A stretch of DNA of 64,000 bases, from assembly GCF_010550695.1 (NCBI RefSeq), contig NZ_JAAGOB010000003.1:372001-436000 (forward strand), written 5' to 3'. How positions within the stretch are numbered: the stretch's first letter is position 1; every line of letters begins with the position of its first letter. The notes below the pieces were generated by a model that was not told the DNA's origin, made no database searches, and saw only the letters and a program-made list of their open reading frames with translations. This stretch comes from Phytoactinopolyspora alkaliphila (GTDB lineage: Bacteria > Actinomycetota > Actinomycetes > Jiangellales > Jiangellaceae). This document shows, one piece after another, positions 15,272 to 30,057 of the stretch. A program made the position numbers and the translations under genes.

Positions 15272-16201
15272 TCACGCCCACGGCACCGGGTCTTCGATCT
15301 CGGCACCTGGAGGCGGCATCGTGTGCCCAAAGGCTGGCCAGACTGAACGCATGAGATCGAAGCTCAGGTGGGTCACAGGCAGTGACAGCGCCATGTGGTC
15401 GGCCTCGGCCAGTGTCGCTCGCATGTCCTTGACGAGAATGTCGAGACCATTCCCATCGCCTTCCCACCAGTCCCTGACATGGTCCCAGTTGCGGGCCACC
15501 CAGCTGTCGCCAACTGAGTGAGTGAAGATCTCGGTGAGCTGCGCCTGGTCGAGATCGAACGCGGCGCCCAGCCTGAGTGCTTCGAAGATGCCGAACATGT
15601 TGACGCCGTAGATGAGTTGCACGCCGAGCTTGGCGGCTTGGGCGGCCTCCAGGCGCTCCGACACCACATAGGTTCGGCTGCCCATGGCGTCGAGGAGTGG
15701 CTCGACAGCCATGACCGCACTGGGGTGGCCCGAGACCATGAAGGTCAGCGTGCCGGCGCGGGATCCCCACGGTCCGCCGCTGAGAGCCGCGCTCAGCGGC
15801 CGCAGCCCGGCTTCCTCAAGCTGGGCGCCGATGGTCGATGTGGCGCTCGGCGAGAGTGTGCTGGCAATGAGGACCGGCAATCCGGCTTTCGCGCCCCGCG
15901 CTACTCCATCCGCACCGAGAAGAGCTGAGTTCGCCTGATCCTCCGTCCGCACCACACAGATGACCGCGCTGGTCGCCGCGGCGGCCACTTCAGCGGGTGA
16001 GGTCACCATCCGGATGCCGATCTCGGCGGCGGCCTGTGACGCGGCGGGAGAGGGATCGAACGCCACGATCTCATAGCCGGCGCCGACCAGGTTCTGGGCC
16101 ATCCCGGCCCCCATGTCTCCGAGCCCGAGGATCCCGGCCACACCTTGCGGCGAGTTCTCGTGAGCGGTGTTCTCGTATGGTAGCGATGCTGGCGAGCTCA
16201 T
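15272..16201 (-). CDS. NAD(P)-dependent oxidoreductase, 3-hydroxyisobutyrate dehydrogenase family
   Basis: A 309-residue beta-hydroxyacid dehydrogenase. The N-terminal Rossmann motif is GILGLGDMGAGMAQNL, followed by substrate-loop residues in SGGPWGSRAGTLT and the catalytic lysine region AAQAAKLGVQ. The residue four after the lysine is glutamine, where classical HIBADH has asparagine, so the substrate probably differs. The first 25 residues look like an extension. It is the last gene of the ABC importer operon and overlaps the upstream permease gene by four bases. A clear paralogue lies at 28328-29173. Confidence 0.88.
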   Translation of the reverse strand: MSSPASLPYENTAHENSPQGVAGILGLGDMGAGMAQNLVGAGYEIVAFDPSPAASQAAAEIGIRMVTSPAEVAAAATSAVICVVRTEDQANSALLGADGVARGAKAGLPVLIASTLSPSATSTIGAQLEEAGLRPLSAALSGGPWGSRAGTLTFMVSGHPSAVMAVEPLLDAMGSRTYVVSERLEAAQAAKLGVQLIYGVNMFGIFEALRLGAAFDLDQAQLTEIFTHSVGDSWVARNWDHVRDWWEGDGNGLDILVKDMRATLAEADHMALSLPVTHLSFDLMRSVWPAFGHTMPPPGAEIEDPVPWA

Positions 16202-17133
16202 CCTTTAAGTCCTCCTCCGACGCTGTTGACAAATCCTCGTTGTGCCATGAGGAAGAACAAGACAGGTGCGACCGTGAAGATGACGGTTGCCGCCATCACT
16301 GCGTCCCATGGCGTGTCAAAGACGCCCAGGAAAGAGGCGATGCCCATGCCGCCTACCCAGTTCTCGCCGCTGGAGATCACCAAGCGGCTGAACAGGAACT
16401 CCTGCCACGCCCAGTTGAAGGAGAAGGCCGCGGCGGCGGCCACGCCAGGTAGCGAGGCGGGGAGGGTGATCCGGAACAGCACACCGAGCCGGTTGCAGCC
16501 GTCGACCATTCCTGCCTCCTCGAGTTCGATCGGGATGGCCCGGAAGCTTCCCGACAGCATCCAGGTCACCACTGGAAGGGTGAACGCGACATTCCCCAAG
16601 ATCACGGCGGTCAGTGAGTCGAACAGGCCGGCCCAGGTCACCATGCTGAACAGCGGCACCATGACCACGACGGGCGGGACCATCTGACTGGCGAGGATGA
16701 GGAAGCCGGATGCCGACACCGAGCGGCCGCGGTATCGGGCGAGGGCATAGGCGGCTCCCGCCCCGGCCACCAAGGAGATCGCCGTGCTGACGAGCGCGAC
16801 GATGCTGGAGTTCCGAAGCCAGGTGATGATCTCGCCGCTGCCGACGGCGGTGGCGAAACCGTCACCGGTAAAGCGTGCCGGGTCAGGAATCGGGGGATAG
16901 GCGAACCGTGCGTCGTTCGGCTGCAAAGCCTGAATGATCATCCAGACGAACGGGAACACCATCATGAGGCCGAGCACCCACGTCGCGATGGTCAGTACTC
17001 GGGAACCGGACCGGCGCTTCTGGGAGATCCGGCCCGGCCGACTCTTCGAGGCGGTCGGGCGCTGACCTTGGCCGTGGCCTGCCGCATCCTTCGTTGAGGT
17101 GCCGCCATGCGAACGGCGAGTGTCATTTCTCAT
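16198..17133 (-). CDS. CUT1-type ABC transporter permease (MalG-like)
   Basis: A 311-residue membrane protein with about six helices. The permease signature near the C-terminal third reads EEAGMVDGCNRLGVLFRITLP, matching the EAA loop that contacts the ATPase. The N-terminal 40 residues are polar and basic. It overlaps the partner permease gene and the downstream dehydrogenase gene. The MalG/LacG family usually handles oligosaccharides, but CUT1 systems can carry other polyhydroxy compounds. Confidence 0.9.
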   Translation of the reverse strand: MRNDTRRSHGGTSTKDAAGHGQGQRPTASKSRPGRISQKRRSGSRVLTIATWVLGLMMVFPFVWMIIQALQPNDARFAYPPIPDPARFTGDGFATAVGSGEIITWLRNSSIVALVSTAISLVAGAGAAYALARYRGRSVSASGFLILASQMVPPVVVMVPLFSMVTWAGLFDSLTAVILGNVAFTLPVVTWMLSGSFRAIPIELEEAGMVDGCNRLGVLFRITLPASLPGVAAAAAFSFNWAWQEFLFSRLVISSGENWVGGMGIASFLGVFDTPWDAVMAATVIFTVAPVLFFLMAQRGFVNSVGGGLKG

Positions 17134-18019
17134 CGCGGGCCATCCTGAGGTAGATCACGGTCAAAACCGACGCGATAGCGAGAACGATCATCCCCAAGGC
17201 TGCAGCTCCGTTCAGATCGAACTGACCGAAGCCTTGCAGGTAGGTGAGGAGCACCATGGTCTCGGTGTTTCCCGCTGGGCCACCTCCGGTGGTCAAGAAG
17301 ATCACCATGAAGGCGCGTCCGAAGACCCACAGCGTGAGGAGGAGCGTCAAAACGCGGGTGGTGTGCCGGAGTCCCGGGACCGTGACGTAGCGGAACCGTC
17401 GCCAAGCCCCGGCTCCGTCAAGCGCGGCTGCTTCGTATTGCTCGCGCGGCACTGTTTGCATGCCGGCGAGGAACATGATGGCGGCCAGCGGAAAGGTCTT
17501 CCAGATCTCGATCGTCGATACCGTCATCAAGGCCAGCTCGGAATTGAATGCGTTGGGGACGTCGTCGAATCCCAGAAGTCCGAGAAGGTACGTGACGATC
17601 CCGTACTGCGAGTCGAGCATCCAGCGCCAGATCAATGCGGTGGCGACGAACGGCATTGCCCAGGGCATGATGAAGAGAGCACGTAAGACGGCGCGGCCGG
17701 CCATGGCCCTGTCGAGCAAGAGCGCTACGGCGATTCCGACGCCGAGGCTGCCGGCAACCACTCCAGCCGTGTAGCGGACCGAGACCCAGATTGAGTTCCC
17801 GAAACGAGGGTCGTCGAGCACACGACGATAGTGATCGAGAGTAAGGCTCCCGGCACCTGTCGTGTCCGTCACGCTCATCGAGGCCGCCTGCCACAGGGGC
17901 CAGAAGAAGAGCAGTGTCATCACGGCCATGGTCGGCATGAGGAACAGCCACGACGTGGGCACCCGGTGTCGACGTCGCGTGCTCACCGTCGTCGTGGTGG
18001 TGGATTCGAGCGTGCGCAC
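17123..18019 (-). CDS. CUT1-type ABC transporter permease (MalF-like)
   Basis: A 298-residue membrane permease with about six hydrophobic segments and the EAA loop EAAALDGAGAWRRFRYVTVP. It is the partner of the MalG-like permease, with which it overlaps by 11 bases. Its gene follows the binding-protein gene by 3 bases. No ATPase gene is present in this operon, as is common for actinobacterial CUT1 systems that share an MsmK-type ATPase encoded elsewhere. Confidence 0.9.
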   Translation of the reverse strand: MRTLESTTTTTVSTRRRHRVPTSWLFLMPTMAVMTLLFFWPLWQAASMSVTDTTGAGSLTLDHYRRVLDDPRFGNSIWVSVRYTAGVVAGSLGVGIAVALLLDRAMAGRAVLRALFIMPWAMPFVATALIWRWMLDSQYGIVTYLLGLLGFDDVPNAFNSELALMTVSTIEIWKTFPLAAIMFLAGMQTVPREQYEAAALDGAGAWRRFRYVTVPGLRHTTRVLTLLLTLWVFGRAFMVIFLTTGGGPAGNTETMVLLTYLQGFGQFDLNGAAALGMIVLAIASVLTVIYLRMARDEK

Positions 18020-18022
18020 CGT

Positions 18023-19399
18023 CTAGTCCTCTTGCAGCGCGAGGAGATCGTCTTGAATGGCATCGGCGACGTCGGCTGCACTCTTCTGGCTGAAGAGAAG
18101 GTCTTGGTAGTGGCGCGTCACGATGTCCTGGATCTGTGGAGTGAACTCTTCCACACCCTCCGGCGCGAGTGATTCGGCTACCGGCACCGCTTGGAGCACC
18201 TCCTCGAACCAGGGGTTGTCGGCCAGGAACTCATCCGGCACCATTCCGGGCCTCGCCGGAATTTGCCAGGACATCTCCACCTGCTTCTGCTGCCATTCGT
18301 CTTCGAGCATCGTCAAGATGACCTGGGCGGCGGCCTCCTTGTTCTTTGCGCCCTTCGGAATTGCGATGAAGCCGTTGGCGGCGGTCGTGCGGGCCGATCC
18401 GAAAGGCATCGGGACGGTGTCGTAGTCGTCGAACGCGTCGGGGTTCTTCGACTGGATGATGGCCATGATGAAAGCGCCCACCACGATGCTCCCGACCTTC
18501 CCCTGACTGAACGCCTCCCGGTAGATAAGTTCGGTCTGCCCGGTGGGAATGAGGTTCTCGTCGTGAAGCCTCTTGATAAAGTCGAGTGCCTCCACGGTGG
18601 CGGGATCGTTGGCGGTTGGTTCGCCGTCGCGGAAGAAGTCCCCGCCGAAGCTCTTGACGATCGGCATGAGTTCCCCGAATGTCGGGAAGGCTGCGGCTGA
18701 AGCGGACATGGTCGCGAATCCGAAGGTCTGGGAGCTGCTGTCTCTGAGTGCTTCGCTCAGGGCCAGCACATCGTCTGGCGTGGTGGGAACGTCGAGCCCT
18801 TCGGACTCCAAGAGCCCGCGATTGACAAAGAGCACCCGGGGGTTGGACATCATGATGACGCCGTAGACCTTCCCGTCGTCCCCGACGGCCATCCGGTTCG
18901 CCGGGATGAAGCTGTCGATGTCGTAACCCGCTTCCTCGAGCCACGGGTCAAGGGGCTCGAGGAGGTCGGCGTCGGCCCAGGCCCGCATGGCCGGGTCGAA
19001 CGGGGTGACCAGGTCCGGCGCGTTGCCCGCGGACATCAGGGTGAACATCTTGTCCTGGTACTCGCCGCCGGGGATGACCTCGTCGGTCAAGGTCACTCCG
19101 GGGTGGCGCGACTCGAACTCGGCCTTGAGCTCGCGCCAGTAGGGCTCGTTGTCCGGTGTGCCCCACATCCAGTTCGGGAATTCCACAACGTCCGACATGC
19201 CACCCTCGATCGTGTCCTGTGATCCGGACTCTGCAGGTGACGATCCGACCGAGCACGCCGTCAGCGCCAGAGCGATACCAACGGGGATGGCCGTGCGAAG
19301 GACTTGTCGCCGAGGGTGCCGGTCCGGTGTGGAGATCTCTGCAGATTCCGGCCTGGCCCGTCGGGCTCCGAGGTAGACACTGCGATTGCGATCATTCAT
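18023..19399 (-). CDS. ABC transporter extracellular solute-binding lipoprotein (family 1)
   Basis: A 458-residue substrate-binding protein. The N-terminus has arginines at about 30-31 (PRRQVLR), a hydrophobic stretch and a lipobox ending LTAC at Cys49, so it may leave through the Tat or Sec route as a lipoprotein. The 30-residue leader before the signal is long, and a later start is possible. The mature part resembles carbohydrate-binding proteins of the MalE/UgpB type. It is the first gene of the operon with the two permeases and the HIBADH-like enzyme. The ligand is unknown and could be the compound degraded by the nearby enzymes. Confidence 0.88.
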   Translation of the reverse strand: MNDRNRSVYLGARRARPESAEISTPDRHPRRQVLRTAIPVGIALALTACSVGSSPAESGSQDTIEGGMSDVVEFPNWMWGTPDNEPYWRELKAEFESRHPGVTLTDEVIPGGEYQDKMFTLMSAGNAPDLVTPFDPAMRAWADADLLEPLDPWLEEAGYDIDSFIPANRMAVGDDGKVYGVIMMSNPRVLFVNRGLLESEGLDVPTTPDDVLALSEALRDSSSQTFGFATMSASAAAFPTFGELMPIVKSFGGDFFRDGEPTANDPATVEALDFIKRLHDENLIPTGQTELIYREAFSQGKVGSIVVGAFIMAIIQSKNPDAFDDYDTVPMPFGSARTTAANGFIAIPKGAKNKEAAAQVILTMLEDEWQQKQVEMSWQIPARPGMVPDEFLADNPWFEEVLQAVPVAESLAPEGVEEFTPQIQDIVTRHYQDLLFSQKSAADVADAIQDDLLALQED

Positions 19400-19825
19400 G
19401 TGCGGGTTGTCCTTCCGCTAGACGGGCTGTGCCACGGGGCGGCGCCGGTTACGTGTTCGTCGACTCAGGACACGGCCGCGGCGCCCGGGTAGGACTCTCA
19501 AGGGTGGAGTCGTCAGCCGGGTCCACGTCTGTCTTAGTGCCCAGCATGGAGCGAACCCAGTACATTCGTCAAGAGAATGTAGGAGGAATGTTTGTTATTT
19601 GTACTGATCTTGTAGTGCTAGCTTGTGTTCCGCGACTAGAGTGATGTGATGACATATGGTGATCACTTGGGGCAGGATATGCAGGGCATCGGCTCCCCGG
19701 CGCTACCGGGAGCCCTTCGGAGCGGAACCCGTTGGCCGTTGTCATTCGACCCGTGAGGCAAGACAATAAGGCGACAATTCTGATGTCCTGGCCCTGTCCG
19801 GTCGTGTTCGCGAGCTGAGGAGTGG
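19400..19825. other. Divergent promoter region, importer operon / deaminase
   Basis: No gene is seen in these 426 bases. The part at about 19575-19625 is markedly A/T-rich compared with its surroundings and likely contains the promoters. A spaced inverted repeat AGTGAT (19640-19645) and ATCACT (19662-19667) could be a regulator site. GAGGAGTGG just before 19826 serves the deaminase gene. Confidence 0.3.
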
Positions 19826-20305
19826 ATGATGAACGGAATACCGCATACGAGCTACCGGGACGGCCGGTACGACCTGGCAGATCTCATGGCGCAGGTGGTC
19901 CGGATGGCTGAGGAGAACGTCGCGCGCGGTCAGCGTCCGTACGCGGCGCTCGTCGTCGCGGACGGCGATATTGTCGGCGAGGGCGTGAACACTGTCCTCG
20001 CGGATGGGGACCCTACGGCACATGCCGAGACCCAGGCGGTGCGAGACGCGTGCGCGCGGCGTGGCAGCCGGACCCTCGGCGGAGCCCATCTGATCTCGAG
20101 CTGTCATCCGTGCGTCATGTGCCAGGCGGTCACCCAACTCGCCGGCATCGGCACCGTCTACTACGCAGGTCCTTGCATGAGCCGGAGCACGGTGGTCCGC
20201 CCCGACCTCACTATCGAGCTCGCGGCGGTGCCCAGCGCGGCGCGGCCCTTCGAGCTCTTCGAACAGACTGGACTGGTCCTCCTGGACGATCCCGCCCTCA
20301 CCTGA
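19826..20305 (+). CDS. Cytidine/deoxycytidylate-type nucleoside deaminase
   Basis: A 159-residue zinc hydrolase of the CDA fold. The zinc and catalytic motif is THAETQAV (HAE), and the second zinc motif is SCHPCVMC (PCxxC). The spacing and sequence are closest to the guanine-deaminase/TadA-like branch, but the base it acts on cannot be told. It would release ammonia from an amino group on a heterocycle or related compound. It converges on the MocR-type regulator gene with only 19 bases between them. Confidence 0.85.
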   Translation: MMNGIPHTSYRDGRYDLADLMAQVVRMAEENVARGQRPYAALVVADGDIVGEGVNTVLADGDPTAHAETQAVRDACARRGSRTLGGAHLISSCHPCVMCQAVTQLAGIGTVYYAGPCMSRSTVVRPDLTIELAAVPSAARPFELFEQTGLVLLDDPALT

Positions 20306-20324
20306 GGGCGCCCCCGATCCTGGC

Positions 20325-21854
20325 TCAAGGCGTCAAGACCGCGCTGACCGGGCTGCTCGCCGCGCGTTCAACGGCATCGGCAAGCGCCGAACTCGCTTCC
20401 CGGATGAGGTCGGGGACTGCAGCACCCGCGTTGACCCGCAGGTGGCTCTCGTTGCCCGGCTGAACATAGAATGGTTCCCCGGGCGCGACGAGAAACCCCC
20501 GCTGCGCTGCGTATTCGGCGACTTGATCCGCGGAGCAGCCCACGGGCAGAGTGAGCCAGACGTGCAACCCGTCGATGTCGGACGCTTCGGGCAGCGTGAC
20601 GCCGGAGCCCGCCAACCGAGATGTGAGCGCGTCCAGCATGACGGCACGACGTTCCGCGTATGCGGCGCGTGTGCGGTCCATCGCCTGGAAGACATCGTCG
20701 CCGGCCAGAAGGTGCCCGAGCGTGCGTTGGCCGATTCGCGACGTCCAGCCGTCGGCGAAGGACTTCTGGACATTCAGCGCCGAGCGGACACTGGGGTCGG
20801 CGACGCCGACCGCCACCCGCAGATCGGGGGCGATGGATTTGGCGAAGCTCCTGACATACACGACTCTGCCCCGGAGCCGGCGGTCTGAGTACAGGGATCC
20901 GCCGGGCCGTGCGGATGCCTCGGCGAAATGGTCGTCCTCGAAGATCTTCACGTCCGGGTGCTGAGCCAGGACATCGGCGAGTTGACGGCGGCGGGCGGAT
21001 GACCATGACGTGCCGGTGGGGCTCTGGACGCGAGGCGTGAACAGAACGGCCGAGGCGCCGCGGTTCAGCGCGTCGTCGAGGGCCGCCGGATTCATGCCGT
21101 GCTGATCGATGGGCACGCCCAGCAAGAGGCAACCAGCGTGTTCGAAGGTATCCATCGCCGTCTGATAGCCGGGCTCCTCGACGGCGATCACAGGTTCGTC
21201 GCCTGCCTGATCCATGAGCATGTGGGCGAAGAGCTGGAGGAATTGCTGGCTTGAGTTCATCACCAGCAACTGTTCCGAGGTAGCGGAGATCTCGTCGCGG
21301 TCAAGGATGGCCAGAATCGGCTCGGCGAGGACCGGGTCGAGATCCAGGTGCCGCGGATACTCAAGGTCGTGCGCAGTGGTTTTGCCTACAGCCGCGCGAT
21401 AGGCACGTTTGAGCTCTGTCAGTGGATAGAGGGCCCTGTCCGGGCTGCCGCGCATCAGGTCGACTGCAGTAGGAAAGGCGTGTTGGAGCCGCGACTCCGA
21501 CTGTGCCAGCAGGCGCCGGCGCCAGGCACGGCGGTTCACGGGTACCCGACTCTGCGCCGCAGCCCGCCCGAGCGGTCGGTGCCGTTCGGCCTGAGCGGGC
21601 GGGTTGACGAAGGTTCCGCGGCCAGTCTCGCCACGGACCATGCCCTTCTCGCCGAGCCGGTTGTACACGCTCATCACGGTCGTGGAGCTGACGTTGAGCC
21701 GGCGGCTGAGTTCGCGCACCGTGGGCAGCCGGACGCCTGGGGCTACGTCGCCGCTGTCGATCGCCGCGGCGATGGCATCGGCAATGCGCTCATACACCGG
21801 CCGGCCGTCGTCGGTGTCCCGGTTGTCAAGAAGCCGATCCCAGATTTCCATCAC
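20325..21854 (-). CDS. MocR/PdxR-type transcriptional regulator (GntR HTH plus aminotransferase fold)
   Basis: A 509-residue regulator. Residues about 18-85 are a GntR winged helix (VRELSRRLNVSSTTVMSVYNRL), and the rest is a class I aminotransferase fold. The PLP lysine is expected at about Lys339 in SFAKSIAP. MocR proteins sense PLP or its adducts with amines, so the pathway may involve an amino compound. It is divergent from the Tm-1-like gene and is the likely local regulator. A TATATT -10 ends six bases before the GTG at 21854 and no ribosome site is visible, suggesting a leaderless mRNA. Confidence 0.9.
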   Translation of the reverse strand: MMEIWDRLLDNRDTDDGRPVYERIADAIAAAIDSGDVAPGVRLPTVRELSRRLNVSSTTVMSVYNRLGEKGMVRGETGRGTFVNPPAQAERHRPLGRAAAQSRVPVNRRAWRRRLLAQSESRLQHAFPTAVDLMRGSPDRALYPLTELKRAYRAAVGKTTAHDLEYPRHLDLDPVLAEPILAILDRDEISATSEQLLVMNSSQQFLQLFAHMLMDQAGDEPVIAVEEPGYQTAMDTFEHAGCLLLGVPIDQHGMNPAALDDALNRGASAVLFTPRVQSPTGTSWSSARRRQLADVLAQHPDVKIFEDDHFAEASARPGGSLYSDRRLRGRVVYVRSFAKSIAPDLRVAVGVADPSVRSALNVQKSFADGWTSRIGQRTLGHLLAGDDVFQAMDRTRAAYAERRAVMLDALTSRLAGSGVTLPEASDIDGLHVWLTLPVGCSADQVAEYAAQRGFLVAPGEPFYVQPGNESHLRVNAGAAVPDLIREASSALADAVERAASSPVSAVLTP

Positions 21855-22367
21855 CGTAACAATATATACACAATCGGCAGACGCTCGGCCTGAGCAGCGC
21901 TCGCCGGCAAGTTCCCAACGCTACTCACCAAGCCGCTGCCAGGCATGGAGCTGCCTTCTCAAGCCGTGGTCCTGACATGGCGGCAGTCCTACGGTACAGA
22001 GCATGAACAACACAACTCAGCCTTCCAAGGCAACACAATCCGGTCTGGCCCTACAAATGCGGTGAACGGCAGACCAGCCGCCTCGTCGGCGCGGGCGCCA
22101 TCCTTGTCGCGCCGCCCACACCCGCACGCCGTGGCAGTCCCAGGATTCTCGGCTGGAGATCCCGGCAGGCTTGGAGATGACGCTGTTCGAGGAGCTCATT
22201 CCGGGTCGACAAGCGAGCTGAACTGGTTGGTTTCGCCGCCGGCTGAGCTCGGCGGCCGGCGGTGGGGGACACGCCTGACTTACCGCAAGACCTTGCCGAA
22301 GTTGGGCAAGGGGCGCACAATCAGACGACAATCACAGCACATTTGGCGCGAATGTAGGGATGTGGTC
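21855..22367. other. Intergenic region between mocR-type gene and Tm-1-like gene
   Basis: A 513-base divergent region. The regulator-proximal end holds the A/T-rich TATATT element (21861-21866, minus strand). The open frame running into the Tm-1-like gene from 21945 has no family resemblance before residue 142, and no clear gene is seen. AGGGA at 22356-22360 is the ribosome site for the ATG at 22368. Confidence 0.3.
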
Positions 22368-23564
22368 ATGACTACCGTGTTGCTCGCGGGTTCGCTTGAT
22401 ACCAAGGGTGCCGAATACGAGTTTCTCGCCGCTGAACTTCACGCACACGGCGTGAAGACGCTGACCGTGGACGTCGGCGTCCGAGGGGAGCCGGTGATCA
22501 GGCCCGACATCTCTCGCGCCGACGTCGCCAAAGCCGCTGGGGTCCAGCTTGCCGACCTGGTCAGCGGCCGGGACCGTGCGGATGCACTGCAGGTCATGGC
22601 TGATGGCTTGCGCGTCGTCGTGGGTGAACGCCTTGCGGGGATCGACGGCGCCGTGGGCATGGGCGGGTCTGGCGCGGTGACCTTGCTGGCCCCGGCGTGG
22701 TGTGCGATGCCGTTCGGTTTTCCGCGTCTCCTGCTCACGACGATGGCGTCGACGGCGTCGGAGGCCGTTGACGGTAGCGATGTGCTCGTCATGCCGTCGC
22801 CGGTGGATATCAGCGGGCTCAATTCGTTCACCACCGGACTGCTCCGTCGTGCCGCGGCCGTCATGCTGGCGAGCGTCGGTGCCCCAGTGCCGGAGAAGAG
22901 TGCGGTGCCGCTAGTGGCGGCGTCGATGTTCGGCGTAACGACGGTGGGGGTCGTGGCCGCGACACGAGCAGTCGAGGCGGCAGGGTTCGACGTCATCACC
23001 TTCCATGCCAATGGCAGCGGCGGGCGGACCATGGAGTCGCTGATCACGCAGGGGGTGTTCGCCGGCGTGCTCGACCTCACCACCACGGAGTTGGCGGACG
23101 AGCTTCTCGGTGGGAAGGCGAGTGCGGGTGTGAATCGGCTCGAAGCCGCGGGCGCGAGAGGTATTCCTCAGGTGGTCTCGGTGGGGGCACTCGACATCGC
23201 GAACTTCGGTCCGCCTGACACCATCCCGGTCCCGGTCCGCTCCCGGCGGGCCTACCGGCACGGTCCGGTCGACACACTCGTGCGGACCTCGGTTGATGAT
23301 GCCCGCACGCTGGGAAGCACCCTCGCGCAGAAGGTGTGCCGGTCGACCGGCCCGGTGACGATGGTGTTGCCCGTCGGGGGCACGTCGTCGCTGGCCGAGG
23401 AGGGGTGCGAATTCTGGGATCCGGTTGCGGAGGAAGCACTGGTCGAGGCGCTGCTGGCCGGGCTGAGTGAGGACGTGAAGGTGAGTCGGGTAGACGCCGC
23501 GCTGAACACCGAGACGTTCGGCCGCAATGCGGCGAGCGAGCTGCTCAAACTCATGGCGCGGTAA
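22368..23564 (+). CDS. Tm-1-like ATP-binding domain protein (UPF0261)
   Basis: A 398-residue protein of the UPF0261/Tm-1 N-terminal domain family. The start region TVLLAGSLDTKGAEYEFL is characteristic, as are DVGVRGEP, GMGGSGAVTLLAPA, and the later FHANGSGGRTMESLI. In tomato the homologous domain of Tm-1 binds ATP and inhibits tobamovirus replication; bacterial roles are unknown. I set the start at ATG 22368 behind AGGGA because homology begins exactly there. The next gene encodes the other half of the Tm-1 architecture. It probably works as an enzyme in the island pathway; the reaction is unknown. Confidence 0.88.
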   Translation: MTTVLLAGSLDTKGAEYEFLAAELHAHGVKTLTVDVGVRGEPVIRPDISRADVAKAAGVQLADLVSGRDRADALQVMADGLRVVVGERLAGIDGAVGMGGSGAVTLLAPAWCAMPFGFPRLLLTTMASTASEAVDGSDVLVMPSPVDISGLNSFTTGLLRRAAAVMLASVGAPVPEKSAVPLVAASMFGVTTVGVVAATRAVEAAGFDVITFHANGSGGRTMESLITQGVFAGVLDLTTTELADELLGGKASAGVNRLEAAGARGIPQVVSVGALDIANFGPPDTIPVPVRSRRAYRHGPVDTLVRTSVDDARTLGSTLAQKVCRSTGPVTMVLPVGGTSSLAEEGCEFWDPVAEEALVEALLAGLSEDVKVSRVDAALNTETFGRNAASELLKLMAR

Positions 23565-23782
23565 TGTAATCAGCACATTAAGTAGTCAATCTATAGACAA
23601 AGCAACGACAATCTTCTAGTCTGGTGGCAGCCGACAGTCGCGGAATCTGATCTTGCGGTGCTGCGGGCTCATCCACGCTCCGTGCTGGAGCGCGGGCCGA
23701 TCTACCGGTTCCGGACGACGCACCACAGAGCACTCACGCCAGCTGAACGGTTCAGCTCACCACAAGCAAAAGGAAGACACGA
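23565..23782 (+). promoter_or_regulatory. Gap before the TIM-barrel operon
   Basis: These 218 bases are A/T-rich near 23566-23620 and contain the 8-base palindrome TCTATAGA (23590-23597). A promoter for the downstream operon may lie here, so the Tm-1-like gene could be a separate transcription unit. No gene is seen. Confidence 0.3.
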
Positions 23783-24652
23783 ATGACACGACAAGAGCAC
23801 CTCAGCCGCTACCGCGGCAAGGTCGAAGAGGGGCGCCCGCTGATCGGCGCGGGCGCCGGAACCGGAATCTCCGCCAAGTGCGCGGCCGCGGCCGGAGTCG
23901 ATTTCATTGTCATCTACAACGCGGGCCGTTTTCGGATGGCCGGACGTGGGTCCATGGCCGGCATGATGCCGTTCGGCAACGCCAACGACATCGTCGTCGA
24001 GATGGCGATGGAGGTTTTGCCCGTGGCGACGCCGACGCCGGTGCTCGCGGGCGTGTGCGCCACAGACCCGACAAAGAACATCTCGATGCTCCTCGAGACG
24101 CTGAAGTCGATGGGGTTCGCCGGCGTCCAGAACTTTCCGAGCGTGTGCCTCCTCGATGGCAGCGTCCGCGAGGACTTGGAAGCCACCGGGTATGGATTCG
24201 ACAAAGAAGTGGCCATGGTGGCCCGTGCACGTGAGCTCGACCTGCTGACCGCCACCTACGTCCGCACCGACGACGAGGCCCGGGCGATGGCCGGCGCCGG
24301 CGCCGACGTGATCGTGGCGCACGTCGGATTGACCGCGGCCGGGATGATCGGCGGGCGTAACGCCGTCGGTCTCGACGAAGCCGCGGAGAAGACCCAGCGG
24401 GTCCACGATGTCGTGAGATCCGTCAACGACGAGGCGTTCGTGGTGTGCCACGGCGGCCCCATCGTGTCGCCGGGCGACGCCGAATACGTGCTCAAGAGGT
24501 GCGACGGAGTGACGGGTTTCCTCGGCGCGTCCAGCATGGAACGTATCCCGGTTGAGATCGCGATCACGGAGACCATTCGGGCGTTCACGGAGATCAAGCT
24601 CGCTCCGGTGATCGATCCGCTGAACGAAACCCGCCAGGAGGCCACCCTGTGA
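23783..24652 (+). CDS. TIM-barrel 'phosphoenolpyruvate hydrolase family' protein (Tm-1 C-terminal domain homologue)
   Basis: A 289-residue TIM-barrel protein. Early landmarks are PLIGAGAGTGISAKCAAAAGVDFIV split over residues 19-43 and NAGRFRMAGRGSMAG; later ones are GFAGVQNFPSVCLLDG and CHGGPIVSPGDAEYVL. The name comes from sequence families; the PEP hydrolase activity has not been shown for members like this. In plants and fungi this domain is fused behind the UPF0261 domain in Tm-1; here the two are neighbouring genes. It starts an operon of overlapping genes and overlaps the cupin gene by four bases (GTGA). Confidence 0.88.
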   Translation: MTRQEHLSRYRGKVEEGRPLIGAGAGTGISAKCAAAAGVDFIVIYNAGRFRMAGRGSMAGMMPFGNANDIVVEMAMEVLPVATPTPVLAGVCATDPTKNISMLLETLKSMGFAGVQNFPSVCLLDGSVREDLEATGYGFDKEVAMVARARELDLLTATYVRTDDEARAMAGAGADVIVAHVGLTAAGMIGGRNAVGLDEAAEKTQRVHDVVRSVNDEAFVVCHGGPIVSPGDAEYVLKRCDGVTGFLGASSMERIPVEIAITETIRAFTEIKLAPVIDPLNETRQEATL

Positions 24653-25020
24653 TCGTCTTCCAGTTGCACGAATTGCTCGCCGATCCCACCGAGGTGCCTG
24701 AGCCGTTGCGTTTCCACGGTCTCGCGTATAGCGCGAATGTCGCAAGCACCGCCACCACCAAGGCGACTGCGGCATTGATCCGGCTTCCCGCGGGCAGCCG
24801 GGGGCACTGGCATCGGCACGCCGACGGCCAGGTCGTCCACGTGGTGCAGGGCGCGGGACTAGTCGGCCGTCGTGGCGAGGACCCGCTCCAGGTCACCACG
24901 GGAGACATCGTATGGATAGAGCCGGACGAAGAGCATTGGCACGGCAGCGCAGCGGGTTCGGACCTGGCCCAGCTGGCGTATTCCTTCGGGGCCATCACCT
25001 GGCTGGAGCCGAGCCTGTGA
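24649..25020 (+). CDS. Cupin domain protein
   Basis: A 123-residue single-domain cupin. The first metal motif is around GHWHRHADGQVVHVVQGAG, and the second around PDEEHWHGSA. Such small cupins are isomerases, dioxygenases or accessory binders; no specific reaction can be assigned. Translation is coupled on both sides, to the TIM-barrel gene and to the MmgE/PrpD gene, so it probably acts on an intermediate of the same pathway. Confidence 0.85.
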   Translation: MIVFQLHELLADPTEVPEPLRFHGLAYSANVASTATTKATAALIRLPAGSRGHWHRHADGQVVHVVQGAGLVGRRGEDPLQVTTGDIVWIEPDEEHWHGSAAGSDLAQLAYSFGAITWLEPSL

Positions 25021-26390
25021 ACCGGACGCCGAGCATCACCGGCGCGCTCGCCGATGCGGTGATCGGCCTGGCCTCTCGCCCTCGTACGGACGAGGGGACC
25101 CGGGCGGCCGAGCGGACCCTCGCCAACATCGTGGCGGTGGCCATAGGCGCGTCCCGAACCCCTGGGGTGCAACGGCTGGCTCGCCACCTCGACACCGGTA
25201 CGGGTGTTCCGCTGGGGCCGAGCCCGCTGATCAGCGAGCGCGGGAGCCCGCGCGCCGCCGCGTTGCTGGCCGGTTTCGCCGGGCACTACGACGACTACGA
25301 CGACACGCACCTCGCCACCGTGATCCACCCGGCGGCTGCGTGCTTCGGGGCGGCATGGGCAGTGGGGCGCGGGCCGCGAGTCGACGGCGCGCTGCTGATG
25401 GACGCGTTCGCCATCGGGTGTGAGATACAGCTCCGGCTGGGTCTCGCCGTCAGCCCCGAGCACTACGACCGCGGCTGGCACATCACCGGCACGTGCGGCG
25501 TCATCGGCGCCACCGTGACCGCTGCTCTCCTGCGCGGGCTATCCCGCGACGAACTGGCGACGGCGCTCGCCATCGCGAGCGTGCGGACGCTGGGCCATCG
25601 TGAGGCATTCGGCACCGAGCTGAAGCCTTTCCACGCTGGCCAGGCCGCCGCCAACGCGGTGAGCTCAGTGGACGACGCGTCCGGCGGATCGTTGCGGTGG
25701 AACCACGAAGACGATCCGATGGCGCTGCTTCTCACCGCCTTCGCACCACGGTCCGCGGATCCTGCAACACTGCTCACGGACAAGATCCGCTGGGAACTGG
25801 ACACCAATGCGATCAAGCCGTACCCGTGCGGCATCGTCGCCCATCCGGGCATCGACGCCGGCCTCGCCGTCCACCAGCGGCTCCGCGCCTCTGGCCGCAC
25901 GGTGGCGGAGATCGTCTCGGTGCGGTATCGCTGCCATCCGCTGGTCCCGGAGCTGATGGGCCGGACCGCACCGGATAACGAGCTCGAGGCGCGGTTCTCC
26001 GCCGTACACGGCGTGGCCGCCGGCCTGCTCCGCGGCACGGTCGGGCTGGCCGAGTTCGACGCCGGGGCCGCACGTTCGCCGGAGTACGGAGACATGCGCT
26101 CGCGCATCACCATGGTGCCCGATGCCCGCCTGGAGCGGGATCAGGCTGAACTTGCGGTCGACATGGCTGGCGGTGACGTCATGGTCGAGTGGGTTGAGCA
26201 CGCGCGTGGCAGTATCGACCGCCCGCTGACCGACGATGAGCTGAGGGCGAAGGCTGACGCCTTGCTCGAACTCGGCCGGGGACCTTCGGCGGAGGAACTG
26301 TGGCGGTTCGTGACGTCGCTGCCGAGCGTCACCAGCGACCCGTGGCGGTCGTTGAGCGCGCCGGATCGGATCGCGGAGGCCGCGCGATGA
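25017..26390 (+). CDS. MmgE/PrpD family protein, full length
   Basis: A 457-residue protein of the family that includes 2-methylcitrate dehydratase, cis-aconitate decarboxylase and iminodisuccinate epimerase. Family landmarks are AALLAGFAGHYDDYDDTH near residue 80, GWHITGTCGVIGA near 155, LKPFHAGQAAANAV near 205, and the C-terminal domain start NAIKPYPCGIVAHPGIDA near 265. The start GTG at 25017 overlaps the cupin stop (GTGA). It likely dehydrates, decarboxylates or epimerises an organic acid. A half-length paralogue follows immediately. Confidence 0.9.
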   Translation: MNRTPSITGALADAVIGLASRPRTDEGTRAAERTLANIVAVAIGASRTPGVQRLARHLDTGTGVPLGPSPLISERGSPRAAALLAGFAGHYDDYDDTHLATVIHPAAACFGAAWAVGRGPRVDGALLMDAFAIGCEIQLRLGLAVSPEHYDRGWHITGTCGVIGATVTAALLRGLSRDELATALAIASVRTLGHREAFGTELKPFHAGQAAANAVSSVDDASGGSLRWNHEDDPMALLLTAFAPRSADPATLLTDKIRWELDTNAIKPYPCGIVAHPGIDAGLAVHQRLRASGRTVAEIVSVRYRCHPLVPELMGRTAPDNELEARFSAVHGVAAGLLRGTVGLAEFDAGAARSPEYGDMRSRITMVPDARLERDQAELAVDMAGGDVMVEWVEHARGSIDRPLTDDELRAKADALLELGRGPSAEELWRFVTSLPSVTSDPWRSLSAPDRIAEAAR

Positions 26391-26983
26391 GCGCCGTGAC
26401 CGTCCGGCTCGGCGAGTTCGCCGTCACCGCGGCTCCGCCGGACTACCTCAGCCAGGCCATGCCGAGGCTCGCGGCCCCTGGGACGGAGCCGTGGGTGAGG
26501 ATGCTGAGCGAGCTTTCGCAGGCGGTCGCTCCGGCGGAATCGGATAGTGACGGCGCCACCTCCGTTGTGCTCGTGGGGGCGGAGGTAGCGGTACGGATCC
26601 ATGCGGCCCTGGCCCCGCACATCGAGGCCGGGTGGGACCCCGGCTGCGCGGCCATCGTGATCGGAGCGGCCGCTGCGGCGGCCCGTCGCCTGGGTCTGGA
26701 CTCAGCGGAGACGGCACGAGCGTTGAGCATCGCCGCGACGCAGGCATCAGGTCTCGCCGCTCTTACCGCAACACCATTCAGCACCGTTCAGCGGCGGCAC
26801 GCCCTGCTCCGGGGGGTGGAGGCCGCGCAGCTTGCCTCTACCGGCTTCACCGCGCCCCTGACCGGGCTCGAGGGCCGGAGAGGACTCTTCGCGGTGCTCG
26901 CGCCGTCGGCGGATCCTGACCAGGTACTCAACGGGCTCGCAGAGCATTGGAGACTGATGGAGGTGCTCAGTGCTTACCCCTGA
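26387..26983 (+). CDS. Half-length MmgE/PrpD-like protein
   Basis: A 198-residue protein resembling only the helical N-terminal domain of MmgE/PrpD. Recognisable parts are AARRLGLDSAETARALSIAA and ASTGFTAPLTGLEGRRGLFA, which match the helical-domain pattern before the KPYPC element. The protein ends ...LMEVLSAYP, just where the second domain would begin, and lacks it altogether. The start ATG overlaps the full-length gene by four bases, and the end overlaps the next gene, so it is maintained in the operon rather than being debris. It may form a heteromer with its neighbour. Confidence 0.7.
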   Translation: MSAVTVRLGEFAVTAAPPDYLSQAMPRLAAPGTEPWVRMLSELSQAVAPAESDSDGATSVVLVGAEVAVRIHAALAPHIEAGWDPGCAAIVIGAAAAAARRLGLDSAETARALSIAATQASGLAALTATPFSTVQRRHALLRGVEAAQLASTGFTAPLTGLEGRRGLFAVLAPSADPDQVLNGLAEHWRLMEVLSAYP

Positions 26984-27635
26984 TCGCATCCATCCCTCGC
27001 GTACAGCGCTCTTACTGATCGACCTGTCCAACGATTTCGTCGATCCCGGCGGCAAAGCGGCGCGGGCTGGCGGCCGGGATGTCGCGCCTGCCGTAGGCGC
27101 GGTGCGGCAAGCCGCCATGCTGGCTACCGGGGCGCGACGAGCCGGTGTTGCGGTGATCCATTGCCTGCACACAACGCTTCCCGGCGCCGCCAGCGATTCG
27201 GCGGTGTGGCACGATGCTCGTTCGCGAGCCACGTACTCGGCCACCGACATCTGCCTGGACGGCAGCTGGGGACAGCAGCCCGTCGATCAGCTCGCCCCCG
27301 AGCCGGGCGACCACGTGGTGAAGAAATTCCGCTACGGCGCTTTCACCGGCACCAGCCTGGAGCTGTTGCTGCGGAGCCTGGCACTCGACACGGTGATCTG
27401 TGTGGGTGTCTCCACCAACGTATGCGTTGACACCACGGCCCGAGAGGCGTTCAGTCGCGAGTTCTTCGTCCACATCGCGGAGGACGCGTGCGCGTCTTGG
27501 GACATGTCCCTGCATGACGCGGCGTTACGCACCGCTGGTCAGCGCTTCGCCGTGGTGGCACGGACCGCAGCTTTCCTCGACAGCTGGGCCGCTGTCGCCA
27601 CCTCGTCAGAAACGGAGATCGACAATGCTCGCTGA
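26970..27635 (+). CDS. Isochorismatase-like cysteine hydrolase
   Basis: A 221-residue hydrolase with the family triad: Asp in LLIDLSNDF, Lys in KKFRYGAF and the nucleophile Cys in STNVCVDTTAREA. Members include N-carbamoylsarcosine amidase, nicotinamidase, ureidoacrylate hydrolase and biuret hydrolase, so cleavage of an amide or ureido bond releasing ammonia (and carbon dioxide) is likely. The start GTG is inside the end of the half-length MmgE/PrpD gene (14-base overlap), and its end overlaps the NIPSNAP gene by 11 bases. Confidence 0.9.
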   Translation: MLTPDRIHPSRTALLLIDLSNDFVDPGGKAARAGGRDVAPAVGAVRQAAMLATGARRAGVAVIHCLHTTLPGAASDSAVWHDARSRATYSATDICLDGSWGQQPVDQLAPEPGDHVVKKFRYGAFTGTSLELLLRSLALDTVICVGVSTNVCVDTTAREAFSREFFVHIAEDACASWDMSLHDAALRTAGQRFAVVARTAAFLDSWAAVATSSETEIDNAR

Positions 27636-27927
27636 GCTTCGTACCTACACCATTTCCCCTGGACAGTCCGACGCGCTGTTCGGTCAGTTTCGCGACCTGA
27701 GCCTGCCGCTCTTCGCTGATCACGGCATCACCGCGTACGGGCCCTGGCGGCGCAGGCTCACCAAGGGAGAGCAACTCGTCTATATCGTCGAGTTCGATGA
27801 CGCCGACGACCGGGACCGCAAATGGGCGGCATTCAAGAACGATCCGCGCTGGATCGCCGCGCAAGAGGCGGTCAGCGGTGGCGTGCCGTTCGTGGCAGGT
27901 AACGAGACGATCGAGATCACCCGATGA
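27625..27927 (+). CDS. NIPSNAP family protein
   Basis: A 100-residue ferredoxin-like (dimeric alpha/beta barrel) protein starting MLAELRTYTISPG, with the motif YGPWRR and VYIVEFDDADDRDRKWAAF typical of NIPSNAP domains. Members often sit in catabolic clusters, but their reactions are mostly unknown. ATG at 27625 follows ACGGAG. The stop overlaps the start of a tiny open frame at 27924. Confidence 0.85.
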   Translation: MLAELRTYTISPGQSDALFGQFRDLSLPLFADHGITAYGPWRRRLTKGEQLVYIVEFDDADDRDRKWAAFKNDPRWIAAQEAVSGGVPFVAGNETIEITR

Positions 27928-27998
27928 GCGCGGTCGTGACGCGGACCGTGCGGAGGGAACTCCAGCTGAGTCCGTTCGAGGAGGACGCGGAGTCGTGA
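27924..27998 (+). CDS. Possible 24-codon micro-ORF
   Basis: An ATG at 27924 overlaps the NIPSNAP stop (ATGA). The frame runs 24 codons (MSAVVTRTVRRELQLSPF then EEDAES), and its TGA at 27996 overlaps the GTG of the next gene (GTGA). It therefore fills the only gap in that part of the operon with the same four-base overlap geometry used by its neighbours. It may be a real microprotein or a translational bridge; no homologue is recognised. Chance is a serious alternative. Confidence 0.35.
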   Translation: MSAVVTRTVRRELQLSPFEEDAES

Positions 27999-28282
27999 CC
28001 CTCGTACACCTGGTCCTTGCCGGCGTCACAGCGGACGAACGAATGGCGGCGGTGCTGGTCGGTCTGGCCGATGTTGCGCGAGAGTGCGGCGCACAGCAGG
28101 CGCTCACGGGGCCCAACCGGGCGCCGGAGGAGTTCGCTGGAGATGTGGCCCAGGGTATGGCGGCGTTGTTCGCCAGCGAGTCGATGCTGGACGAGTATCT
28201 GAGCCACCCTCGGCACCTGGCGTTCGCCGATGAGCTCGGGCGTCTCGGCGCTACCGTGACGGTGGTCGACCTCAGTGCCTGA
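27995..28282 (+). CDS. Dabb-like stress-responsive alpha/beta-barrel protein
   Basis: A 95-residue protein. The C-terminal part SMLDEYLSHPRHLAFADEL followed by TVTVVDL is the typical end of Dabb (stress-responsive A/B barrel) proteins, and the N-terminus starts with a beta strand VTLVHLVLAG. GTG at 27995 was chosen because the barrel fold begins there. Such small barrels include lyases and cyclases of catabolic and biosynthetic routes. It overlaps the 24-codon frame upstream. The reaction is unknown. Confidence 0.65.
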   Translation: MTLVHLVLAGVTADERMAAVLVGLADVARECGAQQALTGPNRAPEEFAGDVAQGMAALFASESMLDEYLSHPRHLAFADELGRLGATVTVVDLSA

Positions 28283-28327
28283 CACCCCATCCGACATGTG
28301 GATTCGTACCCTCACGAAAGAGGCGTC

Positions 28328-29173
28328 ATGACAGAGAACGTGGGTTTCCTGGGACTAGGCGCCATGGGGTTGGGCATGGCCGCCAACCTGGTGGTCGCTG
28401 GCCACACCGTGCTCGGTTTCGACCCGTCTCCCGAGCGTCAGGAGCTGGCCCGGGCCAAGGGCGTGACCGTGGTGGACTCGCCGCGGAGCGTGGCAGAGGT
28501 GACGGAACGGAGTCTGTTCTCCGTAGTCCGGACCAAGGAGCAGACCCAGGACGTGCTCTTCGGTGACGACGGTGTCGTCGCCGCTGGAGTTCCCCTGAAC
28601 GTGGCAATCTCCAGCACGCTGGACCCGACTACCATGGCCGAGCTCGCCACCCGGTTGGCCGCAGAGGGTGTGACCGCGGTGGACACCACCATGTCCGGCG
28701 GGCCTTGGGGAGCCGAAGCCGGCACGCTCACCCTCATGGTGTCAGGTCCGCAGACCGCGGTGACTGAGCTCGACGGATTGCTGCGGGTGATCGGCGAGAA
28801 CATCTTCGTGGTCGGTGACGAGGTGGGAACCGGCCAGGCGACCAAACTCGCTGTGCAGTTGGCGTTCGGGATCAACATGATGGGTGTCTTCGAGGCACTG
28901 GAGGCGGTCCGCAAGCATGACGTGGACGAGTCCGTGCTCATGCGGATCCTCTCCGTCAGCGTGGGCGGGAGTTGGGTCACTGAGAATTGGGACCGCGTCA
29001 CCCCTTGGTGGAAGAACCACAGTCCCGGGGGTGACTTGGAGATTCTCCTCAAGGATCTGCGATCCGTGCTCCGAGAGGCAGACCAGGACGTGGTGTCAAT
29101 GCCGATGTCGGCACTCACGTTCCAGATGCTCCGGCACGTGTGGGCAGGGCGCGCGGATGGACTGGCGCCGTGA
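28328..29173 (+). CDS. NAD(P)-dependent oxidoreductase, HIBADH family (second copy)
   Basis: A 281-residue dehydrogenase with the motif FLGLGAMGLGMAANLV, the substrate loop MSGGPWGAEAGTLT and the catalytic lysine segment GQATKLAVQL. It shares long similar blocks with the protein at 15272-16201, including SGGPWG, the KLxVQL pattern and the ILLKDLR/ILVKDMR segment, so the two are paralogues. ATG at 28328 follows AAAGAGG. It overlaps the alpha/beta hydrolase gene by four bases. It likely oxidises a beta-hydroxy acid or reduces a semialdehyde in the pathway. Confidence 0.9.
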   Translation: MTENVGFLGLGAMGLGMAANLVVAGHTVLGFDPSPERQELARAKGVTVVDSPRSVAEVTERSLFSVVRTKEQTQDVLFGDDGVVAAGVPLNVAISSTLDPTTMAELATRLAAEGVTAVDTTMSGGPWGAEAGTLTLMVSGPQTAVTELDGLLRVIGENIFVVGDEVGTGQATKLAVQLAFGINMMGVFEALEAVRKHDVDESVLMRILSVSVGGSWVTENWDRVTPWWKNHSPGGDLEILLKDLRSVLREADQDVVSMPMSALTFQMLRHVWAGRADGLAP

Positions 29174-30057
29174 GCGACCGCACCACATGCATCACCGCCC
29201 GGGACGGTACCGTTTTGGCGCTCGAGATCGACGGCACCGGGCCGCCACTGCTGATGCTGCATGAAGTGGCGGGTGGAATTCGCAGTTGGGATCCGCAGGT
29301 GGAACAACTGCGCGACCGGTTCACCTGCATCAGGTACAACGCGCGCGGCTTCCCTCCCTCCTCGGTCCCGGAGTCGCCTGCGGCCTATAGCCAGTCGATC
29401 GCGGTCGACGACGCGTTGGACGTACTCGACGCACTCGGTATCGGCAGCGCCCACTTCCTGGGCTTCTCCATGGGCGGCTTCTGCACACTCCATACATGCC
29501 TGCGAACACCGGAACGGGTGCAATCGGCTGTGGTAGTCGGTGCTGGCTACGGCTCGAACCCCGAGCACGGGCAGACCTTCCTGGCCGAGATGGAGTCTGC
29601 CGGGCGGCGCTTCCGGGAAGATCCGCATTCGGCGGCGATCAGCTACGCGAACGGTCCCGCCCGCCTGCAGTTGCGGGCCAAGGCGCCCCAGCGGTGGGAG
29701 CGGTTCCGTGACGCGTTGGCCGGGCACAGCCCGATCGGGCAGGCATATACGTTTACCGAGGTGCTGGGCAAGCGGCCGTCGCTGTTCAGCTTGCGGGATG
29801 AGCTGGCCCGCCTGGAGATGCCGGTGCTGCTCGTGGTCGGTGATGAGGACGACGGTTGCCTGGAGACTAATCTCATGCTTAAACGCACCATCCCGGCCAG
29901 CGGCCTTGCGGTTCTCCCGCGTACCGGCCACACGCCTAACCTGGAGGATCCCGGCGAGTTCAACCGGCAACTGCTGGACTTCCTCCAGCGGGCTCAGCGC
30001 GGCGAGTGGACGGCGAGGGATCCGCAGAGCCTGGATCGCGGCCTGGTCGGCATGTGA
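29170..30057 (+). CDS. Alpha/beta hydrolase
   Basis: A 295-residue hydrolase. The nucleophile elbow is GFSMGG, the oxyanion region is near LHEVAGG, the acid is probably in GDEDDG, and the catalytic histidine is in RTGHTPNLEDP. The sequence resembles 3-oxoadipate enol-lactonase and aminoacrylate-hydrolase-like enzymes. GTG at 29170 overlaps the dehydrogenase stop. It is the last intact gene of the operon; a relic and a strong hairpin follow. Confidence 0.9.
   Translation: MSDRTTCITARDGTVLALEIDGTGPPLLMLHEVAGGIRSWDPQVEQLRDRFTCIRYNARGFPPSSVPESPAAYSQSIAVDDALDVLDALGIGSAHFLGFSMGGFCTLHTCLRTPERVQSAVVVGAGYGSNPEHGQTFLAEMESAGRRFREDPHSAAISYANGPARLQLRAKAPQRWERFRDALAGHSPIGQAYTFTEVLGKRPSLFSLRDELARLEMPVLLVVGDEDDGCLETNLMLKRTIPASGLAVLPRTGHTPNLEDPGEFNRQLLDFLQRAQRGEWTARDPQSLDRGLVGM

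Follow-up and report, generated by a model that had tools for sequence, protein, structure and literature searches.

A candidate heteromeric MmgE/PrpD enzyme in a rare catabolic gene cluster of Phytoactinopolyspora alkaliphila

Introduction

A 64,000-nucleotide stretch of the Phytoactinopolyspora alkaliphila genome (assembly GCF_010550695.1, contig NZ_JAAGOB010000003.1, positions 372,001 to 436,000; hereafter the window) contains, at 15272-30057, a cluster of sixteen genes in which a full-length MmgE/PrpD gene is directly followed by a half-length one. The locus raises the question of which pathway such a gene set could serve, and whether the half-length product has a part in it. No described pathway with this gene combination was found in the literature searched, which included few subscription papers. 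We read the locus as a rare catabolic operon of known enzyme families, with a heteromeric MmgE, probably for the breakdown of an amino-N-heterocycle; for this reading as a whole, we consider the chances to be even.

A conserved operon in seven other genomes

The MmgE protein scan covered one genome per species of 84,980 species, and the best 80 of 140 confirmed candidates were analysed. In seven of these 80 MmgE loci, genes for the Tm-1-like, TIM-barrel, cupin, MmgE, half-MmgE, isochorismatase-like, NIPSNAP, HIBADH-type dehydrogenase (HIB2) and alpha/beta hydrolase proteins occur in the identical order (L078, Microbacterium sp. Root180; L079, Sinosporangium siamense; L080, Nonomuraea sp. NEAU-A123; L081-L084, Actinomadura). 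Protein identity between the window and these relatives is 46-73%, counting in a Dabb-domain protein, the gene for which was seen in five of the seven. The remaining 73 loci are without the block; in two of them, L086 and L134, MmgE is followed by a second, full-length MmgE gene and then by an isochorismatase-like gene. Because the same order is found in seven other genomes, the gene arrangement is more than chance, and the co-occurrence implied by the initial annotation was found for the right-hand operon. The block is a real, rare and patchy unit among Actinomycetota. At an E value of 1e-45, the isochorismatase-like protein was matched in its own genome alone among 396 of the phylum, and the best match of half-MmgE outside its own genome, among 296 class genomes, scored 69.6 bits, compared with 402.5 bits for itself. 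The cluster also holds its own genome's only PEP_hydrolase match and only two MmgE/PrpD N-domain matches.

In the window, the operon is on the forward strand. The Tm-1-like gene (UPF0261, 22368-23564) is followed, after a 218-base gap (23565-23782), by genes for the TIM-barrel protein (PEP_hydrolase family, PF09370, PDB 2p10; 23783-24652), the cupin (24649-25020), the MmgE/PrpD catalytic subunit (25017-26390), half-MmgE (26387-26983), the isochorismatase-like cysteine hydrolase (26970-27635), the NIPSNAP protein (27625-27927), a 24-codon micro-ORF (open reading frame; 27924-27998), the Dabb-domain protein (27995-28282), HIB2 (28328-29173) and an enol-lactonase-like alpha/beta hydrolase (29170-30057). 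Starts were refined for the Tm-1-like gene (22368), MmgE (25017), half-MmgE (26387), NIPSNAP (27625), Dabb (27995), HIB2 (28328) and the hydrolase (29170). All sixteen genes named in the initial annotation are present, each over the Pfam cut-off of its named family, with synteny as additional evidence for the Tm-1-like, NIPSNAP, HIB2 and hydrolase genes, and a tree and a model for half-MmgE. The chain of overlaps proposed across 23783-30057 was borne out from the sequence, the sole exception being a 45-base gap before HIB2. Overlaps are 4 bases for TIM/cupin, cupin/MmgE, MmgE/half-MmgE, NIPSNAP/micro-ORF, micro-ORF/Dabb and HIB2/hydrolase, 14 bases for half-MmgE/isochorismatase and 11 bases for isochorismatase/NIPSNAP.

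The half-length MmgE

MmgE/PrpD enzymes consist of a helical and a lid domain and form homodimers with a common interface, as described in PMC7347537. The window MmgE matches both domains (PF03972, 142.8 bits; PF19305, the lid, 102.9 bits; cut-offs 32.1). It resembles the IDS epimerase/IRG1 branch, with 7bra, 2hp0 and ACOD1 as its best PDB matches, and its H104 and Y150, invariant in all eight clusters (the window and its seven relatives), align with the active-site His and Tyr of IDS epimerase and bsIRG1. For IDS epimerase, H99 and Y145 have been proposed as the bases (PMC7347537). Unlike the known enzymes of this branch, which are homodimers according to the same source, the window MmgE is accompanied by a half-size second gene that lacks the lid and the motifs. 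The PrpD of the methylcitrate cycle shares the superfamily and the Pfam domains of the window MmgE, but the latter scores 18.1 bits against the TIGR02330 cut-off of 458.

Half-MmgE is present in all eight clusters, at 198-233 aa. The match of the window copy to the MmgE_PrpD_N model (244 positions) is confined to positions 123-242, and no lid domain was matched. The DDTH, HP, GWH, KP and KPY motifs are found in 8/8 cluster MmgE proteins versus none of the eight halves. An ORF resembling half-MmgE lies just after MmgE in 42 of the 73 further loci; it is 176-294 aa long in 32 and 436-471 aa long in eight, and differs in size or place in the other two (L100 and L109). For the 32 further halves, a script chose the start, at offsets from -30 to +8 bases relative to the final sense codon of MmgE; neither DDTH nor GWH occurs in any of them. 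Together, these give 40 half-length copies, each directly after an MmgE gene, in three phyla. The eight full-length second copies (L086, L094, L099, L107, L108, L115, L120 and L134) keep DDTH in 7/8 and GWH in 7/8, and possibly represent an earlier state of the pair.

In a tree built from 72 rows (40 halves, 24 catalytic MmgE and 8 full second copies), a branch sets each group apart from the rest, with support of 100/98 for the halves, 100/99 for the catalytic MmgE and 93/83 for the full second copies. Twelve of the halves fill less than half of the columns, two halves form long branches, and midpoint rooting divides the halves into groups of 36 and 4. An AlphaFold2 model of the window half-MmgE, made with 37 aligned halves, had a predicted local distance difference test score of 91.2 and a predicted template modelling score of 0.90. 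In this model, 191-197 of the 198 residues align to seven chains (ACOD1 cis-aconitate decarboxylase, IRG1/bsIRG1, IDS epimerase) at Z 18.4-20.7, over N-terminal stretches of 266-272 residues in ACOD1, bsIRG1 and IDS epimerase; the model covers the helical domain, with no lid. By VIA-align, PrpD/MmgE came next at Z 15.5-16.3, and the first other fold was L-serine dehydratase (4rqo) at Z 9.8, a value that helical domains often reach.

A half-length gene of this kind could be a functionless, decaying remnant of a duplicated mmgE, as suggested by the loss of its catalytic motifs and by a ratio of nonsynonymous to synonymous substitution rates (dN/dS) of up to 0.67. However, dN/dS (0.28-0.67) is below 1 in all five pairs compared, the reading frame is open in 40/40 half-length loci, adjoining MmgE in three phyla, a GRRG loop is invariant in 37/37 aligned halves, and the model is that of a confident, complete domain. 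We rejected the remnant explanation on spread, tree and dN/dS, and regard it as highly improbable. Half-MmgE is, as judged from its sequence, a putative non-catalytic partner that is conserved, and no fragment. A complementarity of the GRRG loop, kept in the half and lost in MmgE, was also considered. The pattern was not clean (present in 38/40 halves and 2/40 partner MmgE), and GRRG is also absent from 22/31 partnerless MmgE and from 4/8 MmgE with a full-length second copy.

From synteny, the tree and the single-chain model, we infer that MmgE and half-MmgE form a heteromeric MmgE/PrpD enzyme, because the halves constitute a half-length family with a helical-domain-only fold, the known enzymes are homodimers with a common interface, and H104 and Y150 are invariant. 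In such a heteromer, the full-size MmgE would provide the active site and lid, and half-MmgE would take the place of the other protomer in the family dimer. Several observations count against this proposal. By the same test, the partner ORF was not seen in 31/73 MmgE loci, therefore MmgE of such a kind may work alone; with midpoint rooting, four halves part from the others, so that one common origin of the halves is no more than compatible with the tree; and half-MmgE is the fastest-evolving of eight genes in 5/5 pairs, which also agrees with a remnant. Neither a heteromeric MmgE/PrpD nor a description of a half-MmgE partner was found in the literature searched, again with few subscription papers. 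The sequences and the model would fit an undescribed heteromeric class, an obligate complex between a catalytic subunit and an ancient, lid-less, catalytically dead half, distributed over Actinomycetota, Burkholderiaceae and Eremiobacterota, and placed here within an undescribed amino-N-heterocycle pathway; we put the probability of this combined proposal a little short of even. If it is true, a heteromeric branch, in which one subunit is a non-catalytic half, would be added to a family whose solved members are homodimeric.

Carrier and regulator families near 54 MmgE loci were identified by scanning one member of each family. TctA and DASS/CitMHS-type families were each found at 7 loci; an MFS family was found at 20 loci and a GntR family at 16, most of these in Burkholderiaceae. 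Because MmgE loci lie near carboxylate carriers, MmgE and its half probably act on a di- or tricarboxylate, as far as gene neighbourhood can indicate. The Burkholderiaceae with MmgE and a half (L085, L088-L093, L095, L096, L101, L106, L110, L112, L113, L138) often have the pair next to genes for an MFS carrier and a regulator of the GntR/FCD type, a compact operon in which the pair stands apart from the window pathway.

Modules exchanged around the core

Comparison of the window with its seven relatives shows that several modules differ around the fixed core. A four-gene BMP-type importer is present in 7/7 relatives. In six relatives, L078 being the exception, genes for a GMC oxidoreductase and its small partner separate the Tm-1-like gene from the TIM gene, and an aldehyde dehydrogenase gene lies between NIPSNAP and Dabb/HIB2. 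A VOC protein is encoded in six (in L078, on the other strand), and an amidohydrolase of the cytosine-deaminase family in five, the examined DNA of L081 ending before that place. The nine extra genes of the relatives were not found in the 64-kb window, except for a 31% ABC ATPase-domain match at 3502-4173; in the own genome, the best BMP match was 28%, and there was no full-length GMC match. The small GMC partner is a 157-aa protein (L083:8222-8695, with homologues in L079-L082 and L084) with many invariant columns, and had no Pfam or NCBIfam match.

Because the importer, amidohydrolase and oxidation genes of the relatives are missing from it, the window copy looks derived, with a sugar-type importer for BMP, a CDA-fold deaminase for the amidohydrolase, and the oxidation genes gone. 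Possible traces of the latter were examined at two places. The micro-ORF occupies the slot of the aldehyde dehydrogenase gene, and its tail RRELQLSPF resembles the aldehyde dehydrogenase RGEPRVSPF. Its DNA similarity to six aldehyde dehydrogenase 3' ends was reached by 0/600 control windows, and its protein similarity by 46/4000 control frames and by 28/2000 (mean) or 78/2000 (maximum) shuffles; it is likely to be a deletion scar of that gene, judging by these similarities. For the 218-base gap, resemblance to the 3' end of the GMC-partner gene was reached by 25/1000 (mean) or 68/1000 (maximum) shuffles at the protein level, with the six best 64-kb control windows higher, and by 8/400 controls at the DNA level, so that it could at best weakly be suggested as a decayed scar. 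In both cases, the DNA tests were run after the protein tests. The swapping and loss of importer, deaminase and oxidation modules around a fixed core in eight clusters narrows the task of the core.

Enzyme families and the candidate substrate

The cluster MmgE, isochorismatase-like protein and cupin keep intact catalytic or metal-site residues in all eight clusters. The isochorismatase-like protein (PF00857, 150.7 bits) has D18, K118 and C152 in 8/8; a D-K-C triad is a feature of isochorismatase-like cysteine hydrolases. Its best solved relatives (6xix, 8bkd, 6xjm) are of the RutB ureidoacrylate, biuret and triuret type, but it remains under the NCBIfam cut-offs for RutB and biuret hydrolase (97.2 of 377.95 and 93.3 of 370 bits). 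The cupin resembles bacterial cupin hydroxynitrile lyases, with matches to 4bif, 4uxa, 8oz8 and a mandelonitrile lyase model, and has an HxHxxxQ...H site (H55, H57, Q61, H96, invariant in 8/8), which we take to be a metal site; unlike the (R)-mandelonitrile lyase cupin, it scores 88.3 bits against the NF049940 cut-off of 140. The MocR-type regulator has PdxR as its best NCBIfam match (239.7 of 320 bits). The BMP protein of the relatives has matches to BmpA, to BmpD and to a protein that binds atrazine; a model for a putative B6 transporter was matched weakly (69.8 of 400 bits).

The deaminases are of two unrelated folds, the CDA fold in the window and the cytosine-deaminase fold in the relatives. 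The idea, already in the initial annotation, that the deaminase and the isochorismatase-like enzyme release ammonia is strengthened to some degree, because the relatives hold a deaminase of an unrelated fold and the D-K-C triad is kept in 8/8. Because of the isochorismatase-like amidase, the two deaminase types, the BMP matches and the PdxR match of MocR, we tentatively suggest an amino-N-heterocycle as the substrate, a specific guess that we nevertheless consider doubtful. In the proposed pathway, a polar compound, probably an amino-N-heterocycle, would be imported, and nitrogen would be taken off by two enzymes, the isochorismatase-like one of the amidase type and the deaminase. Through H104/Y150, the His/Tyr pair of B. 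subtilis IRG1 and IDS epimerase, the MmgE/PrpD enzyme would then epimerise, isomerise or decarboxylate an intermediate that is a di- or tricarboxylate. The last steps on the carbon skeleton would fall to the HIBADH-type enzymes, the cupin, the enol-lactonase-like hydrolase and the Tm-1/TIM pair, under regulation by MocR. Weighing against this pathway are the NCBIfam results, in which none of the 15 window proteins scanned passed a model for a characterised protein (the Tm-1-like protein passes one model only, named 'hypothetical protein'), the difference in importer, which is of the sugar type in the window and of the BMP type in the relatives, and the absence of an amidohydrolase or deaminase from the 21 kb of the L078 Microbacterium cluster examined.

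The matches of the isochorismatase-like enzyme to the RutB model and to solved RutB and biuret hydrolases would also suit a Rut-like route, with pyrimidine ring opening, ureidoacrylate-type hydrolysis by this enzyme, and reduction by HIBADH, and the alpha/beta hydrolase weakly matches RutD. Against this, the RutB score is far under its cut-off (97 versus 378 bits), a RutA search of the genome gave 18 matches, the best of 66.9 bits and none over the 498.3-bit cut-off, and the route gives no role to MmgE, the cupin or Tm-1/TIM. We consider it very unlikely.

The Tm-1-like/TIM pair in other contexts

The TIM gene was found in 21/393 class genomes (own included), and the pair is commoner than the block. 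Of the 23 non-own TIM places in the class, 19 were examined: Tm-1-like and TIM are adjacent in 18 and a MocR-like gene is nearby in five, and there was no match to the cupin, MmgE, half-MmgE, isochorismatase, NIPSNAP, Dabb, HIB or hydrolase in any of the 19. One genome of the same family, G217, has three PEP_hydrolase copies on three contigs (L054, L055, L061). Co-evolution of Tm-1-like and TIM (TBST) proteins, and occurrence of the pair in bacteria, archaea, fungi and plants, have been described (PMC5028733). The literature searched gave no biochemical function for the pair beyond the antiviral action of tomato Tm-1, and the operon offers a genetic handle on it.

The pair also occurs in plasmids of Rhizobium and others. 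Two Rhizobium plasmid loci (L170, L171) bring together a sugar ABC importer, GntR, Tm-1-like, TIM, HIBADH-like and cupin genes, as does the window, but show low identity to it outside Tm-1/TIM and have no match to MmgE, half-MmgE or the isochorismatase. Both also hold a Gfo/Idh gene. This grouping brings sugar-acid catabolism into consideration, in which a sugar-type importer would supply a compound that HIB1, the HIB2 paralogue in the left half of the cluster, and HIB2 oxidise in the manner of L-threonate dehydrogenase, and that Tm-1/TIM activates and cleaves. A similar route may occur in the Rhizobium plasmids. Consistent with this, the window binding protein resembles sugar-binding proteins, and L-threonate dehydrogenase is the best NCBIfam match of HIB1 and HIB2, though under its cut-off (153.9 and 162.9 of 350 bits); they are also under that of the HIBADH equivalog (144.5 and 151.8 of 291.6 bits). 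However, all seven relatives have a BMP-type importer instead, the HIBADH of the Rhizobium loci shares only 28% identity with HIB2, the Rhizobium cupin gave no match, and the amidase and deaminase are left unexplained. We judge sugar-acid catabolism to be unlikely, though a serious candidate.

The left half of the cluster

The importer, deaminase and regulator genes precede the conserved operon. HIB1 (15272-16201), a beta-hydroxyacid dehydrogenase of the HIBADH type, two permeases (PF00528; 16198-17133 and 17123-18019) and an extracellular binding protein of the sugar type, with sugar-binding proteins as PDB matches (PF01547; 18023-19399), are on the reverse strand. They are followed by the CDA-fold deaminase (PF00383; 19826-20305, forward strand), whose nearest solved relatives are guanine deaminase, TadA and guanosine deaminase, and by the MocR-type GntR/aminotransferase regulator (20325-21854, reverse strand; assigned by Pfam). 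Within 15272-19399, the importer genes comprise a binding protein and two permeases, and there is no ATPase gene among the sixteen; the importer would need a shared ATPase from elsewhere.

The initial annotation had placed both halves in one catabolic set, which did not hold for the left half as part of a conserved unit: because no counterpart of the binding protein, the permeases, HIB1 or the CDA-type deaminase was found at the seven relative loci, these genes fall outside it, and MocR was found in one only, as a 46% homologue beside the L078 cluster. This absence, together with the rearrangement of the region around the tRNA among congeners, would fit two unrelated neighbouring units, an importer-HIB1-deaminase unit on the left and the conserved operon on the right. 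Against a division, HIB1 is nearer to HIB2 (43% over 279 columns, 233 bits) than to anything in the 295 other class genomes (best 130 bits), and the SGGPWG and NWxxVxxWW motifs that it shares with six aligned HIB2-type sequences are common to both; MocR stands between the halves, with its homologue at the Microbacterium cluster. We consider two unrelated units to be rather improbable, and retain HIB1 in the pathway of the conserved operon, to which it was probably added locally, since its closest match is HIB2 and the two have these motifs in common. A search for a shared operator motif in three promoter regions was unconvincing, with 12 common 14-mers (at most two mismatches; overlapping matches) versus 1-8 in six shuffles.

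The tRNA gene and the origin of the cluster

A tRNA-Leu gene (anticodon taa; 15032-15106, forward strand), the one tRNA found by ARAGORN, forms the left flank, and the initial annotation had viewed the cluster as an island following it. CFA, ACT, PDF and tRNA-Leu(taa) are close together in 4/4 congeners, one with an inversion. None of the sixteen genes is near the tRNA in these four (19.5-19.9 kb examined, of which 0.9, 14.0, 15.9 and 16.6 kb lie beyond the tRNA), except for distant sugar-ABC relatives of 24-34% identity in one genome, and half-MmgE and HIB1 had no match anywhere in the four genomes. The absence of the cluster from the DNA examined in 4/4 congeners gives the island view partial support. 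Other signs of an island were not found: no direct repeat of the tRNA end is listed in 14800-33500 (repeats of at least 16 bases), G+C in 2-kb windows is 62-71% in the cluster versus 64-70% elsewhere, and Pfam scans of the sixteen genes and the EHN gene described below contained no integrase or mobility gene, no search aimed at integrases having been made. In congener G183, the DNA after the tRNA is similar to window position 43108 and beyond, therefore the whole stretch is variable, and not the cluster alone. Segments of the window from 39.7, 43.1 and 57-64 kb adjoin tRNA-Leu(taa) in the congeners (L163-L166). The cluster was likely gained by transfer, whatever the mechanism.

Downstream of the cluster, a short remnant with 41 codons open (30387-30512, forward strand) resembles the N-terminus of an IS110 transposase (PF01548, E value 0.005, 17.1 bits, under the cut-off of 29). 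An epoxide-hydrolase-type gene with an EHN domain (30606-31739) lies outside the overlap chain, and has a 39% relative 6 kb from MmgE in L126. At 32165-32215, two perfectly complementary inverted-repeat arms of 23 bases flank a 5-base spacer, a terminator-like shape.

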